This document shows positions 8,412-63,430 of a stretch of 64,000 nucleotides of DNA, one piece after another (the first letter of the stretch is position 1; each line of letters starts with the position of its first letter). Under the pieces are notes generated by a model. The model saw only the letters and a list, made by a program, of their open reading frames with translations. It was not told the origin of the DNA and did not search any database. Origin of the DNA: Herbinix hemicellulosilytica. Lineage in GTDB: Bacteria; Bacillota; Clostridia; Lachnospirales; Lachnospiraceae. Location of the stretch: NCBI RefSeq assembly GCF_002904165.1, contig NZ_CVTD020000015.1, positions 1-64,000 on the forward strand. The letters are read 5' to 3'. The position numbers and the translations under genes were made by a program.

Positions 8412-9091
8412 ATTTGACTTATTTATTTTATATAAAATATACAATGAAATGTATCGTCGGTATCTAATATAAAAGTCGAATAAGTATCAGATTATATTGA
8501 TAAAACGGTACTTGTTCGTTTCGTATAATCTTAAATTTTTATCGGTTTAGCAAAAAAAATCATCTTCAATTTTTATATATTTTCTTTAGTCAAAGCTCCC
8601 CATTATTAATTGATTTTCTATAATTACGAATTTATATATATTGCTGTATATAGTTTAAAATACATATGCAAATTATACAATAATGTGGCTATAGTTATCT
8701 TATGCCGTTATTTGAAGTATAGCTTAATTTTTGCTATAATCATTTTGTAATGATTTTATATGTACTCCAAGTTTACTAAACAGAACCGAATAATACCTGC
8801 ACTTCTTACTGTTTATTACAGTCAAGAATAACTCTTACACCCGGTTATGTCTGTATTGAAATTGCAGTGCAATTTCGTCTTAGCTTAAATAAAGCTTCTT
8901 TCTATCTGCAGGAAGGTACTTAAGATGATTTAAAAAATCCAGCATTAACTGGATTTGGTTAATTATTGTCTTTTTTAGGCAATAACATTTAATATATTTT
9001 CCTGGTTGGCTTATTCTCATGTAATTAAGCTGTTTTAAACACCGAAAATAAGATTGTTTGTTACTTGCTTTAAAGGAAGGTGATGTATAGA
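8412..9091. other. Non-coding AT-rich stretch upstream of the aminomutase gene
   Basis: I see no gene here on either strand. It contains a perfect odd palindrome (8858-8876) and a small hairpin AAATCCAG/CTGGATTT (8935-8942 with 8949-8956) that would lie in the leader of the next gene. It may hold the promoter of that gene, but no convincing -35/-10 pair stood out. Confidence 0.5.
8858..8876. repeat. Perfect 19-bp palindrome
   Basis: GAAATTGCA (8858-8866), a central G and TGCAATTTC (8868-8876) are exactly inverted. It lies about 215 bp upstream of the aminomutase start. It could be a regulator site, or the remains of a hairpin; no T-tract follows. Confidence 0.5.
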
Positions 9092-10321
9092 ATGACATTG
9101 TCAAATATACCCGAAGAAAGGTTTGATAAACTGAGAAATGAAATTTCGGATTATGAGAATATTAAGGACAGGATTTTTACGGGTATTGAGGATTATGAGA
9201 AAATACTATATCAAAAAAAGAAAATTCTTAAGTATCTGAATGCTACCGAAGAAGACTACAACAATTATCATTGGCAGATAAAAAACCGTTTTACATCTGC
9301 AGAAGGCATATCTAAAATTATAGATCTGTCCGAAACCGACTTAAAATATATAAACGAAGTTGCATCCAAGTACCGATTTGCCGTATCCCCTTATTATTTA
9401 TCTCTGATAGATCCCCAAAATTCCGATTGTGCCATAAAAAAACAGGCAATTCCGGCTGTAGAAGAACTCAATGATTTGGGTGAATTGGACCCAATGGATG
9501 AGAAGGGAACGGCAATTCATGATATAATTACAAGAAGGTATCCTGACCGTTTGATTATAAAAATAACCAATGTATGCGGAATGTTTTGCAGGTTCTGTCA
9601 AAGGAGAAGACATATCGGAGAAACCGATAAAGTTGTTCCGAGGGCTAAGATACAGACAGCGATTGAATATGTGCGGGAAAATCGTGAAATTCGTGATGTT
9701 CTTATAACAGGAGGAGACGCCTTTTTGGTATCCGATGAGATGATAGAGTGGATGTTAAAAGAACTGAGGGCTATACCTCATGTTGAAATAATCCGCTTTG
9801 GTACAAGAACTCCCGTAACTTTGCCTCAGAGAATAACCAAAAATCTTGTAGATATATTAAAAAAATATCATCCCATATTTGTAAATACCCACTTTAATCA
9901 TCCAAGAGAAATAACACCCGAATCCAAAATCGCATGCGAAATGCTTGCTGATGCGGGAATACCTCTTGGAAACCAGATGGTACTCTTAAACGGAGTAAAC
10001 AATGATAAATATGTTGTAAGAAAGTTAAATCTAAAGCTTCTTACCATACGGGTAAAACCGTATTATATTTTTCATCCTAAAACTGTAAAAGGTACAAGTC
10101 ATTTTTGGGTAAAGATAGAAGAAGGATTAGAAATAATGGAAAGTCTTCGGGGCAGGACTTCCGGTCTTGCTATTCCTACATATATCATAAACGGGCCTAA
10201 AGGATTAGGTAAAACGCCTATAATGCCGAATTATTTATTATGCCTTGGCAAGGATAAGGCTTCTTTCAGGAATTGGCAGGGTGAATATTTTGAAGTTGAA
10301 AATTTTGGTGCTGATGCATAG
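9092..10321 (+). CDS. eam: KamA-family radical SAM aminomutase, probably glutamate 2,3-aminomutase
   Basis: 409 residues. The radical-SAM cluster is C162, C166 and C169 (CGMFCRFC), followed by QRRRHIG. The PLP lysine is K374 in PKGLGKTPIMPNY. In lysine 2,3-aminomutase, Asp293 and Asp330 hold the lysine side-chain amine. Here the aligned residues are K330 (HPKTVKG) and N367 (IINGPKG), with the same 37-residue spacing. Lys and Asn at these sites are what I recall for clostridial glutamate 2,3-aminomutase, which makes beta-glutamate, an osmolyte. The start is ATG 9092, 11 nt after AAAGGAAGG; GTG 9080 and ATG 9083 also lie in frame. Confidence 0.8.
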   Translation: MTLSNIPEERFDKLRNEISDYENIKDRIFTGIEDYEKILYQKKKILKYLNATEEDYNNYHWQIKNRFTSAEGISKIIDLSETDLKYINEVASKYRFAVSPYYLSLIDPQNSDCAIKKQAIPAVEELNDLGELDPMDEKGTAIHDIITRRYPDRLIIKITNVCGMFCRFCQRRRHIGETDKVVPRAKIQTAIEYVRENREIRDVLITGGDAFLVSDEMIEWMLKELRAIPHVEIIRFGTRTPVTLPQRITKNLVDILKKYHPIFVNTHFNHPREITPESKIACEMLADAGIPLGNQMVLLNGVNNDKYVVRKLNLKLLTIRVKPYYIFHPKTVKGTSHFWVKIEEGLEIMESLRGRTSGLAIPTYIINGPKGLGKTPIMPNYLLCLGKDKASFRNWQGEYFEVENFGADA

Positions 10322-14637: not shown

Positions 14638-15999
14638 ATGAAACAATTTATAATCAGGAACAGGAGAAAATACATTAAAACAATACGGATAATATTACTT
14701 ACATTATCCGTATTTTTTATATTGCGTATTTTTTTCCTGGTCATATCCGATGAATTTAACCAGGCAAAAAATAAAGTAAAAACTTCGGTAATAACCATGA
14801 TATATTCAAAAATAATGGATTCCGGTTCGGCCCTTGTAGGCTATCAGTCCATAAAAGCTAAAGAAAGCTATCCTTTCCCATTAAATATTGCTTCGGATTA
14901 TTATGATATTCACAAATACGTAACATCCGGACCACAGCCGTACCTATTGGAAGATACTGAAAATAATGCTATTGAAACAATTAAAAATGATAATAAAACA
15001 GGTAAAATAAATTTTAATGATAGGCTAAAAGGAATACTGTCAAAAGAATATATATTAACAAACGGAGCAATATTCAATACAGATGATTACATTGAGTATA
15101 TTAATGCCGGTAAATTGAATATCAGAACTCAGGAGCTGCCCGTAAAAATAATGGACGGAGCAATTGATATTAACGAATTAACTAATAATTCCAAAGGGGA
15201 CGGAAAAACCGTTGAAACTATGAGGACTTTTAACGGGACTCCATTTACCCTTGATATGCTTAATGACGTAAATTTCCTGCTTCGGCATTTTTATATTATC
15301 GATTCTGCTACAAGGGTAACGGAAGACATGTTCAATGCCGAGGTCCTTCTTGGAAAAGATATGACTATAAAAACTCCCAATGACAAACCTCAGATACTTA
15401 TATATCATACCCACTCACAGGAAGCATTTATAGACAGTAGAGAAGGAGAAAAAGATGATACGGTTGTCGGTGTCGGGGCGCTGTTGGCTAAAATATTAAA
15501 AGAAAAGTATGGATATAATGTAATACATGACAAGAGCGTATACGACCTAGTTGACGGAAAACTTGACCGGAATAAGGCGTACAATCTGGCGCGGCAATCC
15601 ATATTAAAAATTTTGGAGGAAAACCCGAGTATCGAAGTACTTATAGACTTGCACAGGGACGGGGCCGAAAAAAGGTCTACATACATAAACGGGCAGGAAA
15701 CAGCCCAGATAATGCTTCTTAACGGCCTTAGCAGAAATCAGTACGGGCCTATAGCGAGACTTGACAATCCCAATTTGCAGGATAATCTGGCTTTCAGCCT
15801 TCAACTGCACCTTAAATCACTGGAGCTGTATCCCGGATTATTCTATAAAAACTATCTGCAGGACTATCGTTATAACCTTGATCTAAGGCCAAAGAGCATA
15901 CTGGTGGAACTAGGCACCCATAAAAACACCTTAAAATCAGCCAAAAATGCCATGGAACCCTTCGCCGAAATCCTAAACGCCGTCCTAAAAGGCGAATAA
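14638..15999 (+). CDS. spoIIP: Stage II sporulation protein P
   Basis: 453 residues. A basic N-terminus and one membrane helix (about 19-41) precede a long linker and the C-terminal SpoIIP hydrolase domain. Visible motifs are IYHTHSQEAF, DLHRDGAEKR and LVELGTHKNT, which carry the metal and catalytic residues. SpoIIP is an amidase and endopeptidase that, with SpoIID and SpoIIM, drives engulfment of the forespore. The start is ATG 14638 after GGAGG; an upstream TTG in frame is ignored. It follows gpr by 81 nt, with no terminator between. Confidence 0.95.
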   Translation: MKQFIIRNRRKYIKTIRIILLTLSVFFILRIFFLVISDEFNQAKNKVKTSVITMIYSKIMDSGSALVGYQSIKAKESYPFPLNIASDYYDIHKYVTSGPQPYLLEDTENNAIETIKNDNKTGKINFNDRLKGILSKEYILTNGAIFNTDDYIEYINAGKLNIRTQELPVKIMDGAIDINELTNNSKGDGKTVETMRTFNGTPFTLDMLNDVNFLLRHFYIIDSATRVTEDMFNAEVLLGKDMTIKTPNDKPQILIYHTHSQEAFIDSREGEKDDTVVGVGALLAKILKEKYGYNVIHDKSVYDLVDGKLDRNKAYNLARQSILKILEENPSIEVLIDLHRDGAEKRSTYINGQETAQIMLLNGLSRNQYGPIARLDNPNLQDNLAFSLQLHLKSLELYPGLFYKNYLQDYRYNLDLRPKSILVELGTHKNTLKSAKNAMEPFAEILNAVLKGE

Positions 16000-16032
16000 A
16001 TCCTTGTAACTAAAATTTTCATATGATATAAT

Positions 16033-16171
16033 GTACGCGATAAACGAAGCTCAGATGTTTAGAGGTTCACAAATGAAACTTATATTTTAAGTTTCATTTG
16101 TGGACTTCTGAACATCGGAGCGAGTAACGCGAGCGAAGTGCCGAAGGCACTGAGCTTCGTTTATCGCGTAC
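16033..16171. repeat. Inverted-repeat element with 21-bp perfect ends
   Basis: The 21-bp segment at 16033-16053, beginning GTACGCGATAAACG, is exactly complementary to 16151-16171, which ends in CGCGTAC. Between the arms lie a long imperfect hairpin (16054-16116) and a GTGCC-GAA-GGCAC hairpin. The right arm is also the 3' part of the first 68-bp tandem unit. The layout suits either a MITE-like element of about 139 bp or a large branched RNA. Its base composition is richer in G and C than the flanks. Confidence 0.8.
16054..16116. repeat. 28-bp hairpin with G-U compatible differences
   Basis: The arms 16054-16081 and 16089-16116 pair over 28 bp with a 7-nt loop ATATTTT. The three non-Watson-Crick positions are all G-U pairs if the plus strand is transcribed. 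This lies 55 bp downstream of the spoIIP stop codon and could terminate or stabilise its mRNA, although no T-run follows. Confidence 0.75.
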
Positions 16172-16324
16172 TTTTACTTAAAATGAAACGAGTAACGCGA
16201 GCGAGATGCCGAAGGCATCGAGCTTCGTTTATCGCGTACTTTTACTTAATATAAAGCGAGTAACGCGAGTAAAATGCCGAAGGCACTGAGCTTCGTTTAT
16301 CGCGTACATTCACTTTATTCAAAT
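16121..16324. repeat. Three tandem 68-bp units, each able to fold
   Basis: The units at 16121-16188, 16189-16256 and 16257-16324 each begin CGAGTAACGCGAG and carry a xTGCC-GAA-GGCAx hairpin, then AGCTTCGTTTATCGCGTAC and a T-rich tail. Unit 1 pairs AGTGCC with GGCACT, and unit 2 pairs GATGCC with GGCATC, so both strands of the stem changed together. Unit 3 has one mismatch. A partial fourth copy, ATTTATCGCGTA (16329-16340), follows. It lies between spoIIP and lepA. Confidence 0.9.
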
Positions 16325-16401
16325 TTTCATTTATCGCGTAGATTTTCGTTAATGATTTTCCCTTCACTTTGGTGAGATTAAATATACACAGGAGGATATG
16401 C

Positions 16402-18213
16402 ATGGGAATTGACCAGAGTAAAATCAGAAATTTTTGCATCATAGCACATATAGACCACGGAAAATCCACTTTAGCGGACAGAATTATTGAAATGACCGGT
16501 TTGCTTACCGACCGGGAAATGCAGGATCAGGTTTTGGACAACATGGATCTGGAAAGAGAAAGAGGAATTACGATTAAGGCTCAGACGGTACGAACCGTAT
16601 ATCGTTCAAAATCCGGCGAAGAATATATATTTAACCTGATAGATACACCCGGACATGTGGATTTCAATTATGAGGTATCAAGAAGCCTTGCCGCCTGTGA
16701 AGGGGCAATTCTTGTTGTGGATGCAGCCCAGGGAATTGAAGCCCAGACCCTTGCCAACGTTTATCTGGCTATTGATCATAATCTGGAGATAATGCCGGTT
16801 ATAAATAAGATTGATTTACCCAGTGCCGAGCCGGAGAGGGTTATAAAAGAAATAGAAGATGTTATTGGGCTTGAAGCCCATGACGCACCCTTAATTTCCG
16901 CAAAACAGGGTATTAACATCGATGAAGTTTTGGAGCAAATCATAACCAAAATCCCCCCTCCGAAAGGCGATCCTCAAAAGCCTTTAAAAGCCCTGATATT
17001 TGATTCTATTTATGATTCTTACAAAGGTGTTATAGTATTTTGCAGGATTATGGACGGCACGGTAAAAAAAGGAGACCAGATAAAAATGATGGCGACCGGT
17101 GCCACTTCAGAAATTGTGGAACTAGGAACTTTCGGACCGGGCCAGTTTATCCCCAGCGAAGAACTTTCTGCCGGTATGGTCGGATATATTGTTACCGGAC
17201 TTAAGAACGTAAGAGAAACCCGAGTGGGAGATACTATAACCGACGCAAAAAACCCTTGTGACGAACCCCTTCCCGGATATAAAAAGGTGCTGCCTATGGT
17301 TTACTGCGGCGTTTACCCGACAGACGGAGCCAAGTATCCTGATTTGAGGGATGCACTGGAAAAACTTCAGCTAAACGATGCGGCTTTGCAGTTTGAACCT
17401 GAAACATCCGTCGCTTTGGGCTTTGGATTCAGATGCGGCTTTTTGGGGCTTTTGCATCTTGAGATTGTCCAGGAAAGGCTGGAGAGGGAATATAATCTTG
17501 ACCTTATAACCACGGCACCCAGTGTTATATATAAGGCCTATTTAAAAAACGGTCAGGTTATCGATATAACCAATCCTACAAACATGCCCGATCCTTCCCA
17601 GATAGACTATATGGAAGAACCTTTTGTTTCGGCAAGCATCATGGTTACTACGGATTACGTAGGGCCTATAATGACCCTGTGTCAGGAAAGACGGGGCATA
17701 TATCTTGGCATGGAATACATGGAAGAAAAAAGGGTAGTATTAAGATACGATCTTCCATTAAACGAGATTATCTATGATTTCTTTGATGCCTTAAAATCAA
17801 GATCCAGAGGATATGCTTCACTGGATTATGAGTTTAAGGGTTATGTCCAATCCAATCTGGTGAAACTGGATATTCTGGTTAATAAGGAAGAAGTAGATGC
17901 TCTGTCATTTATCGTACACGCCGACAGTGCCTACGAAAAAGGAAGAAGGATGTGCGAGAAACTAAAAGAAGAGATTCCCCGCCACCTGTTTGAAATTCCT
18001 ATTCAGGCAGCCATAGGAAGCAAAATAATTGCCAGAGAAACCGTTAAGGCCGTCCGTAAAGACGTACTTGCCAAATGTTACGGTGGTGACATAACCAGAA
18101 AGAAAAAACTGCTTGAAAAGCAAAAAGAAGGCAAAAAGAGAATGCGCCAGATCGGCAACGTAGAAATACCTCAAAAAGCTTTCATGAGTGTATTGAAGCT
18201 GGATGATAACTAA
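16402..18213 (+). CDS. lepA: Elongation factor 4 (LepA), ribosomal back-translocase GTPase
   Basis: 603 residues, full length. The GTPase motifs are [18 protein letters not shown] and NKIDLP. They are followed by the EF-G-like domains and the LepA-specific C-terminal domain with [18 protein letters not shown]. It acts on stalled or mis-translocated ribosomes. The start is ATG 16402 after CAGGAGGATATGC; an upstream GTG at 16369 and the out-of-frame ATG at 16398 are rejected. The order lepA-hemW-hrcA is the usual one in Firmicutes. Confidence 0.97.
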
Positions 18214-23767: not shown

Positions 23768-24904
23768 ATGGCTGAAAAAAGAGATTATTATGAGGTTTTG
23801 GGTGTCAGCAGAAATGCGACGGAAGAAGAAATAAAAAAGGCATACAGGAAACTGGCAAAACAGTATCATCCCGATGCCAACCCCGGAGATAAAACTGCCG
23901 AAGCCAAATTTAAAGAAGCATCCGAAGCCTATGCCGTACTAAGTGATCCGGAAAAAAGAAGGCAATACGATCAGTTCGGCCATGCCGCCTTTGAAAACGT
24001 AGGCGGAGGAGCCGGTGGATTTGACTTCTCCGGTTTTGATATGGGAGATATTTTCGGAGATTTATTCGGAGATCTTTTCGGAAGCCGCTCAAGGAGAGCC
24101 AATACCGGGCCGGTACCGGGTGCAAATATAAGAACTTCTGTAAGAATAACTTTTGAAGAAGCCGTATTCGGTACGGAAAAAGAATTGGAATTAAATCTCA
24201 AAGACGAATGTGAATCCTGTCACGGAACCGGTGCCAAACGCGGAACCAGTCCCGAAACCTGTCCTAAATGTGGCGGCAGAGGTCGGGTTATATATACTCA
24301 GCAATCCCTGTTTGGTATGATAAGAAGCGAGCAGACCTGTCCGGACTGCAGAGGAACGGGTAAAATAATCAGAGAAAAATGCCCCGACTGCTACGGTACC
24401 GGATATGTTTCGGGAAGAAAAAAAATAAAAGTAATTATACCTGCAGGTATTGATAACGGTCAAAGTATCAGAATACGAGGGAAAGGTGAACCAGGCCTTA
24501 ACGGAGGACCCAGAGGAGATTTGCTGGTGGATGTGGAAGTGGCAAGACATCCCATTTTCCAAAGAAAAGATTATGACATTTATTCTACGGCTCCTATATC
24601 CTTTGTTACTGCAGCTTTAGGAGGAGATATCCGTATAAGTACCGTTGACGGAGACGTCATATATACAGTAAAACCCGGAACTCAGACCGATACAAAAATA
24701 AGACTCAGAGAAAAAGGCGTTCCTTCATTAAGGAATAAAAATATTCGGGGAGACCACTACGTAACCCTGGTAGTTCAGGTACCTACCAATCTTACCGCAG
24801 AACAGAAAGAACTTCTAAGAAAATTTGAAGATTCCTTAAACGGTAAGAGCGTTAATACCGACAAGGAAGAAAACGGAAAAAGCAAACGAAAATTTTGGAA
24901 GTAA
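23768..24904 (+). CDS. dnaJ: Chaperone DnaJ (Hsp40)
   Basis: 378 residues. The J domain carries HPD in [11 protein letters not shown], followed by a Gly/Phe-rich region with [14 protein letters not shown]. Four zinc repeats are present ([32 protein letters not shown]), then the C-terminal substrate domains. It stimulates DnaK ATPase and delivers clients. The start is ATG 23768 after AAAGGTGAAGG; a GTG 12 nt upstream is in frame but lies within the ribosome binding site. Confidence 0.97.
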
Positions 24905-62151: not shown

Positions 62152-63035
62152 TGGCAAGGAAAGTTAAAGGTATTGTCGGGATATTGTTTTTGATTATAAT
62201 AATCGGAGTAATTATAATCGGGTCCAACGCCCTTGTTATTACAAACGAAGATGAATATACCCTTATTAAAAGGTTTGGGAAAATAGAAAGAGTCATAGAC
62301 AGTGCAGGCTTATCATTTAAGACCCCTTTTGTTGAAACGGTCGATAAACTTCCTAAAAGCATTCAATTTTATGATATGCCTCAGTCAGACGTAATAACAG
62401 TCGATAAAAAAGCTATGGTTGCAGATTCTTATGTCTTATGGAAAATAACCGATCCGGTTTTATTTGCCCAGACCTTAAATTCCTCCTTGGTTCTGGCTGA
62501 GAGCAGAATTAATACCATAGTATACAATGCCATGAAAAATGTTATCAGCCGCAATACCCAAAATGAGGTTATAAGCGGAAGAGACGGTGAGTTAAATGCT
62601 GCTTTTATGAATGATATCGGCGACAGCATGAAGCAATACGGCATTGAACTTATCACCGTAGAAAATAAGCATCTGGATTTACCCAGTGATAACAAGAATG
62701 CGGTATTCGAAAGAATGATTTCAGAAAGAGCCCAGATGGCTGCAACATATACAGCAGAAGGCGAATCTGAGGCTCAGATGATCCGTAACAGCACCGACAG
62801 AGAGATAGAAATAAGCATATCAGATGCCCAAAAAGAAGCGGCAAAAATAATTGCCGAAGGTGAAGCGGAATATATGAGAATATTGTCCGAAGCATATTCC
62901 GATAGCTCAAAAAGTGATTTTTATACCTTTATAAGAGCTTTAGACGCGGCAAGAACATCTTTTGCCGGTTCGGATAAGACCGTTATCTTATCTAAAGATT
63001 CACCGATAGCACAGATTTTTTACAATCTGGATTAA
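62151..63035 (+). CDS. hflC: HflC-type SPFH membrane protein
   Basis: 294 residues. A membrane helix (about 7-28) is followed by an SPFH domain with EDEYTLIKRFGKIERV, LPKSIQFYDMPQSDVITVDKK and a long coiled coil that includes SDAQKEAAKIIAEGEAEYMRILSEAY. It works with HflK around FtsH. The ftsH gene is not in this window. The last base of the hflK stop is the first base of its ATG. Confidence 0.93.
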   Translation: MARKVKGIVGILFLIIIIGVIIIGSNALVITNEDEYTLIKRFGKIERVIDSAGLSFKTPFVETVDKLPKSIQFYDMPQSDVITVDKKAMVADSYVLWKITDPVLFAQTLNSSLVLAESRINTIVYNAMKNVISRNTQNEVISGRDGELNAAFMNDIGDSMKQYGIELITVENKHLDLPSDNKNAVFERMISERAQMAATYTAEGESEAQMIRNSTDREIEISISDAQKEAAKIIAEGEAEYMRILSEAYSDSSKSDFYTFIRALDAARTSFAGSDKTVILSKDSPIAQIFYNLD

Positions 63036-63430
63036 TTGAATAATATCGGATTTAATTAATCTAATAATATAGGATGTAATTAATCTATTCAAAAGGAAAT
63101 TCTTATGAATTTCCTTTTGAAATTTATGCAGATTTCCATACTAACTATTAAGCATATCTTTAGCCAAATACCCATATATTGTAGTGAATATAACCGTTTC
63201 CTTAGGACATAATTTGGATACGCAGCCGGCCAAAAAGCGATTCTATTATAACCACTCAGAGGAATGTTTTCATTGTATTTCTTGGATTCTTAATATTTTA
63301 CGATTTGATATGGTTTTTCGTTATTTGAAACATCCTTTGAAATAATATTTGTTTAAATTTTTATGGGTAATCATAATTTTAAGTTTTAATACCGGCATAA
63401 ATGTAACAGTTCTGAATAGGGAGTCTGCAT
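63036..63430. other. Intergenic DNA with a hairpin and a short direct repeat
   Basis: Besides the hairpin (63089-63120) and a duplicated segment of about 23 bp (around 63040-63085, TAATATCGGAT and TAATATAGGAT units), I see no gene in the rest. Confidence 0.45.
63089..63120. terminator. Hairpin after hflC
   Basis: A perfect 14-bp stem, TCAAAAGGAAATTC (63089-63102) with its complement at 63107-63120, has a TTAT loop. The T-tract is short, so termination efficiency is uncertain. Confidence 0.65.

Follow-up and report, generated by a model that had tools for sequence, protein, structure and literature searches.

A repeat block upstream of lepA in Herbinix hemicellulosilytica belongs to a dispersed family of structured, non-coding elements

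The DNA analysed here is a stretch of 64,000 nucleotides from Herbinix hemicellulosilytica (hereafter, the window), in which Pfam matches place a repeat block, at 16033-16341, between spoIIP and lepA. We found that this block belongs to a family of structured, non-coding elements dispersed in the Herbinix/Mobilitalea group (Lachnospiraceae). The explanation that we favor, and hold with moderate confidence, is that members of this family sit at -10 boxes and become the leader of the downstream gene, and that they are non-autonomous, promoter-docking mobile elements. The features of the locus are as follows.

16004-16032, plus strand: lepA promoter, TTGTAA-17 nt-TATAAT, with TG before the -10 box (consensus scan, 10/12)
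16033-16054, plus strand: left arm GTACGCGATAAACGAAGCTCAG, directly 3' of TATAAT, able to pair with the right arm of every unit
16054-16116, plus strand: long hairpin P2, a 29-bp perfect core with a 5-nt loop (from the fold and family covariation)
16119-16131, plus strand: joining stretch GCGAGTAACGCG(A), corresponding to GTGCAACGTG in the family (from alignment A3)
16121-16188, plus strand: 68-bp unit 1, consisting of the joining stretch (J), P4, the right arm and an AT-rich spacer
16131-16157, plus strand: small hairpin P4 of unit 1, GAGC-GA-AGTGCC-GAA-GGCACT-GA-GCTT (from alignment and pair counts)
16150-16171, plus strand: right arm of unit 1 (inverted repeat I3)
16189-16256, plus strand: 68-bp unit 2, also a partial match of models R2 and R3
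16257-16324, plus strand: 68-bp unit 3, with a weak partial R2 match (16258-16293, 16.4 bits)
16326-16341, plus strand: partial fourth right arm TTCATTTATCGCGTAG, with two mismatches to TTCGTTTATCGCGTAC
16390-16395, plus strand: lepA ribosome-binding site AGGAGG (from sequence)
16402-18213, plus strand: lepA (elongation factor 4; Pfam GTP_EFTU and LepA_C), with its ATG at 16402

The first-pass annotation had described an inverted pair enclosing a long and a smaller hairpin, followed by three direct 68-bp units that no coding sequence explains, and this layout was borne out. The left arm, taken as 16030-16054, can pair with the right arm of unit 3 at 25/25 bases and with that of unit 1 at 24/25. 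Both P2 and P4 are present. The wider P2 arms span 16049-16121 (34-nt arms, 88%), P4 of unit 1 has a tandem GA internal loop and a GNA triloop, and at the joining stretch an alternative helix, H0, pairs the 5' end with CGTG/CGCG. The three units are 100/90/84% identical to unit 1, and the array has a TRF score of 313. Stem changes between units 1 and 2 compensate each other as claimed (AGTGCC/GGCACT versus GATGCC/GGCATC); unit 3 (AATGCC/GGCACT) breaks one of these compensated pairs. The fold of 16028-16345 reached -144.8 kcal/mol (z -13.8), and 0/100 shuffles were as low. The sole open reading frame of at least 60 aa over the repeats is an unsupported 75-aa frame on the minus strand (16242-16469). 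TRF also reported further short tandem arrays in the window at 24044-24082 and 63031-63087, with a 12-bp unit GGAGATATTTTC (x3.2) and a 24-bp unit (x2.4).

When the block was compared by BLAST with 99 genomes, only three had matches, namely its own, G013 and G003, and no second copy was found in its own genome. This result is misleading about the size of the family, because the family diverges too fast for BLAST. The copies that the first-pass annotation had proposed to search for were thus absent by BLAST from the own genome, whereas a covariance model recovered more loci there and in relatives. In G003 the element is complete and sits at the corresponding position before lepA, its hairpin being entirely different; in G013 a left arm and a hairpin are followed by seven 53-bp units, ahead of a methyltransferase gene. 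The product of the gene beside the G013 element (L029:1683-3263) contains many TTPGAPMTTPRTP-type repeats in tandem. A unit model, R1, together with patterns added G180 and G170, which belong to other genera, and further copies came from a pattern of the -10 box plus arm and from weak matches within the genus to the Rfam family Clostridiales-1. An exact-pattern scan of genome contigs returned nothing beyond G013 and G003. Among viral sequences there were 0 matches for the unit and 13 for the left arm, none of them significant with R1 (best E 0.15); a phage collection gave no match, and plasmids gave one match, at chance level. Matches to Rfam microRNA models were discarded as generic hairpin matches below cut-off. 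The searches also turned up two other repeats. One is a different element of G003 with AAAGTGTCAAAAG...CTTTTGACACTTT ends, present in two copies (L195 and L206; C39:61313-61394 and 9068-9149) that form a long hairpin with a CUUG loop. The other is a repeated hairpin element common to three species (L198, L201 and L207 in G024, G010 and G021), in which CCTCATCAGGGAAG... is followed downstream by ...AGTAGCGTAAGCGGAT.

Fifteen aligned elements share one geometry: CGNGATAAGC, a type-specific stretch (RAAG in type A, which includes the window, or AGATTAG in type B), P2, GCAACGYG, P4 and the right arm. P2 is a hairpin of about 29 bp at a near-fixed position, its apex about 43 nt from the start of the arm, and P4 takes the form GARC-GA-stem-GNA-stem-GA-GYUC. 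The first-pass annotation had asked for co-variation across copies, and we found it to be strong, with double changes in 32 of the 33 pairs of P2 and P4. In these helices 85.3% of cells were paired versus 59.3% after shuffling, a level that 0/500 shuffles reached; across 85 aligned matches the figures were 89.8% versus 61.9%, with the alignment fitted to the model. Covariation also marks a short helix that joins a 5' CRNG to the CNYG just after P2 (CACG/CGTG, CGCG/CGCG, CATG/CATG). The outer helix, P1, was ruled out as proof of covariation, as 291/500 shuffles reach its score; in type B its sequence is conserved and its covariation is not above that of shuffles.

Model R2 was made from eight type-B elements at loci other than the window. 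It matched the window at 16029-16168 with 47.8 bits (E 9.5e-12), and partially at units 2 and 3, in a test that is not fully independent, since one training element lies elsewhere in the own genome and three (G170, G010 and C26 of G000) had been found through window-derived queries. Matches of R2 at E<1e-3 were obtained in 9 of the 16 sources searched, one of which is a training locus. L166, L173, L174, L149, L177 and L178 were missed, and the E value for L181 was 0.046. A census with model R3 (at most 102 candidates scored per genome) returned 273 matches at E<=0.01. They come from 28 of the 34 congeneric genomes covered; six genomes had none, and the largest number in one genome was 46. The corresponding loci are fewer, as the count includes tandem units and echoes on the opposite strand. 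In the own genome, R3 made six matches. Among the matches listed, four lie at three loci: the window, contig C26, where a tandem pair precedes a DnaB_2 gene, and contig C8, where a copy precedes a DUF624 gene. The remaining two are probably units 2 and 3 of the window.

At lepA, the left end of the block lies 3 bp 3' of the -10 box, and a scan found no plus-strand terminator. Because it starts just after this -10 box, the block is predicted to be the 5' leader of lepA, a context that the first-pass annotation had not brought out. In at least eight congeneric genomes without the element, TTGTAAC...TATAAT still stands ahead of lepA; R3 places the element at 2 of 30 congeneric lepA loci. The lepA leader of G007 (L068) has only TATAATGTACGCGATAAAGAAG, a left arm after the same promoter, perhaps the remnant of a lost element. 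In G023 the lepA leader (L072) holds several AGGAGGAAAAATCCTCCT-type repeats, in which boxes resembling ribosome-binding sites are paired with their complements.

This position is common in the family. An exact TATAAT occurred within 14 nt upstream of the left end, 30 times at one offset, in 36 of the 64 copies inspected, a non-random choice from the 273 (the best of each genome, with high-scoring copies from G021, G018, G032 and G014 added; seven copies or loci are also in the R3 training sequences). Control windows had an exact TATAAT in 64/6130 cases (1%). With one mismatch allowed, the box was present in 50/64 copies versus 869/6130 control windows and absent from 14/64. TG preceded TATAAT in 27 of the 36 copies, and a -35 box with at least 4/6 matches was found in 20 of the 36, versus 22.5% and 20.5% in two controls. 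The statement that every copy follows TATAAT was rejected: it came from a TATAAT-based pattern, and the census with R3, a model without the -10 box, gives the 36/64 reported here.

The element is also oriented. We found the downstream gene to be co-directional in 37 of the 39 copies with a callable gene, comprising 19/19 loci with long flanks and a gene call (24 examined) and 18/20 refetched loci, in which both exceptions lack TATAAT. A heuristic on short flanks had given 21 plus, 9 minus and 7 ambiguous; all 16 minus or ambiguous loci except L337, at a contig end, were refetched with longer flanks, together with five others. As a control, Clostridiales-1 gave 13 plus and 12 minus relative to the downstream gene. 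The genes downstream of the family are unrelated housekeeping genes, encoding DnaB_2, LepA, VanY, a MutS2-like protein, trigger factor, a tRNA synthetase, a DEAD helicase and others.

Dispersal to unrelated flanks within one genome was shown in G021, where the hairpins of 18 copies are up to 95% identical and the upstream flanks of the top pairs are 23-40% identical. Of within-genome pairs, 15% reached 80% identity, versus 0.9% of pairs between genomes. Near-identical copies in unrelated flanks indicate that the family disperses. Target-site duplication was not detected: 3 of 62 own flank pairs share at least 7 bp, versus 10% of crossed pairs, and so the mode of movement is inferred. The first-pass annotation had read the block as a MITE-type element amplified in tandem or as a structured RNA. 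Much of this stands, given the covariation, the multiple copies and the dispersal. As in MITEs of the DDE type, the arms are paired (25 bp in the window), the element is short, no open reading frame is supported and copies are dispersed within one genome (up to 46 matches per genome); the target duplication of such elements was not detected in the 62 flank pairs, and a comparable test was clearly positive in Clostridiales-1 (29/36 copies). The tandem amplification is real as well, but it concerns the right end only (P4 plus right arm) and not the whole element. A second stretch resembling the left arm was found within 90 nt downstream in 17/62 copies versus 15/1240 shuffled controls, and right-arm repeats recur in G013, G027, G180 and others. 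In the 68-bp array this recurrent duplication of the right end has gone to an extreme.

Some copies have stayed in place. The same DnaB_2-type gene is preceded by a copy in five species (two by Pfam, three by eye); there P2 is paired at 111/115 and P4 at 49/50, and 14 of the 23 P2 pairs are doubly changed with the structure kept. Retention at this locus, taken with the dispersal, means that both coexist, and retention with compensatory changes fits a host function as well. The block could thus be a host-functional, cis-acting leader RNA whose long and GA/GNA hairpins, on nascent mRNA, set processing or stability; its usefulness would then have led copies to spread through ordinary duplication. 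Its duplex of about 29 bp, lying at the 5' end, could plausibly serve as a substrate of RNase III and shield that end. The co-direction in 37/39 copies is consistent with this explanation, as are motifs typical of RNA (the G(CUUG)C loop of many copies, the GNA triloop and tandem GA). The downstream genes, however, have no common function, nor do they form one pathway, as would those behind a riboswitch or attenuator. The range of 0 to 46 matches per genome, with 6/34 genomes lacking any, and conserved arm letters that reach upstream of the predicted transcript start also argue against it, and we consider this explanation, the main alternative, rather unlikely.

The nearest catalogued relative is Clostridiales-1 (RF01699), which Weinberg et al. 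2010 describe as a likely RNA that is not cis-regulatory (PMC2864571). Across 250 Lachnospiraceae genomes, with the best 10 candidates at most scored per genome, RF01699 matched in 132 and exceeded its cut-off in 109, and one genome had 95 and 108 matches to the end pattern on the two strands. From six genomes (G109, G303, G060, G118, G248 and G041) we sampled 40 copies (L243-L282), 36 of them with both ends readable. Exact duplications of at least 6 bp flanked 29 of these 36 copies versus 38 of 1260 crossed pairs; they are AT-rich and 6-8 bp long, mostly 7 bp, and 28 are 7 or 8. Target duplications together with random orientation identify a MITE-like transposon, and we conclude that Clostridiales-1, catalogued as an sRNA, is a transposon-like repeat present in high copy number. 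No published account of it as a transposon was found in searches of the literature on RF01699 and on miniature inverted-repeat elements in Lachnospiraceae and Rfam, and the few loci inspected with long-spaced ends held ordinary genes only, with no autonomous partner or transposase. This links a 'structured RNA of unknown function' to transposition, and the family annotation should change.

Both families are non-coding and multi-copy, and they appear to have a similar arrangement, in which paired ends enclose a long hairpin, its loop often G(CUUG)C, and a GA-module hairpin comes next. One member of the lepA family scored 47.6 bits against the RF01699 gathering cut-off of 48 bits, and R2 gave seven matches on canonical Clostridiales-1, at 5/30 loci with E<1e-3, largely from the long hairpin. 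RF01699 had no match in the window at 15900-16500 at E up to 10 and exceeded its cut-off in 0/34 congeneric genomes. Clostridiales-1 has 7-bp target duplications, random orientation and other end sequences, whereas the lepA family is oriented and without duplication. From these weak scores and the shared fold, the lepA family looks like a divergent sister of Clostridiales-1.

We consider it improbable that the family is a REP/BIME moved by a RAYT (Y1/HUH), or a close relative of IS200/IS605 type that inserts, with no target duplication, on the 3' side of a short, fixed sequence. Hairpin-bearing ends, one orientation to a short target and the lack of target duplication are traits of single-strand transposition, described in part in PMC6006769. 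In the strict sense of the definition given there, the REP type proposed in the first-pass annotation was not supported, because GT[AG]G occurs in the block only at 16100, inside P2, and at 16338, and at the foot of no hairpin. Further, the closest relative family makes 7-bp target duplications, unlike single-strand transposition. As for a local palindrome and tandem duplication unique to the lepA leader, with no family behind it, the BLAST results alone would suit it, and we give it almost no credence, as R2 and R3 detect the family widely and the covariation rules it out.

We return to the promoter-docking mobile element. With its left end just 3' of a -10 box, each element would form a structured 5' leader on the gene that follows, which in the window is lepA. 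We infer a non-autonomous element with folded ends recognised by a transposase supplied in trans, docking in one orientation at the -10/melted region of sigma-A promoters, such that the promoter is kept and a leader is added. Counting against this explanation are the flank pairs without target duplication, the 14/64 copies that lack TATAAT even when one mismatch is allowed, the retention before DnaB_2-type genes and the P1 helix, whose covariation does not exceed that of shuffles. The -10 region is melted in the open complex, and as the left end lies there, insertion at the open promoter is our preferred, unproven model. With the transcript start predicted near 16039 (7 nt after the -10 box), part of the conserved arm would lie upstream of the RNA, which favors recognition of the arms at the level of DNA. 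Slippage at the palindromic right end, or template switching there, may have produced the 68-bp units, and a leader with a duplex of about 29 bp may affect mRNA stability or processing. Tentatively, we propose a wider picture: a new promoter-docking mobile element that enters the melted -10 of active sigma-A promoters in one orientation without target duplication, is transcribed as a structured leader of housekeeping genes, has partly been kept as a functional leader with compensatory evolution, and is sister to an Rfam 'sRNA' family that is really a transposon. If this is true, transposable leaders stand behind dozens of housekeeping promoters in one clade, and an element that spares the promoter is rewriting mRNA 5' ends; it would also allow a test of the way in which insertion at an open promoter might proceed.

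Known systems resemble the lepA family in part. REP/RAYT systems are likewise species-specific dispersed palindromes (PMC6006769); the lepA element differs in having no GT[AG]G foot and a hairpin of about 60 nt rather than a short one. Mutator-like elements (TnGBS, ISLre2, ISKra4) insert in an oriented manner at sigma-A promoters, 13-17 bp upstream of the -35 box (PMC3942029). They carry or relate to a DDE transposase. The lepA element lies 3' of the -10 box, not upstream of the -35 box as a p-MULT would. Correia elements and other prokaryotic MITEs are also short, non-coding mobile repeats near genes, and one Correia element lies directly downstream of the mtrCDE promoter, according to a review (PMC10969869). 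Correia elements bring their own promoters along, and their ends are unrelated to those of the lepA family, which is set apart from them by the absence of target duplication, a covarying internal fold and a strongly one-directional placement.
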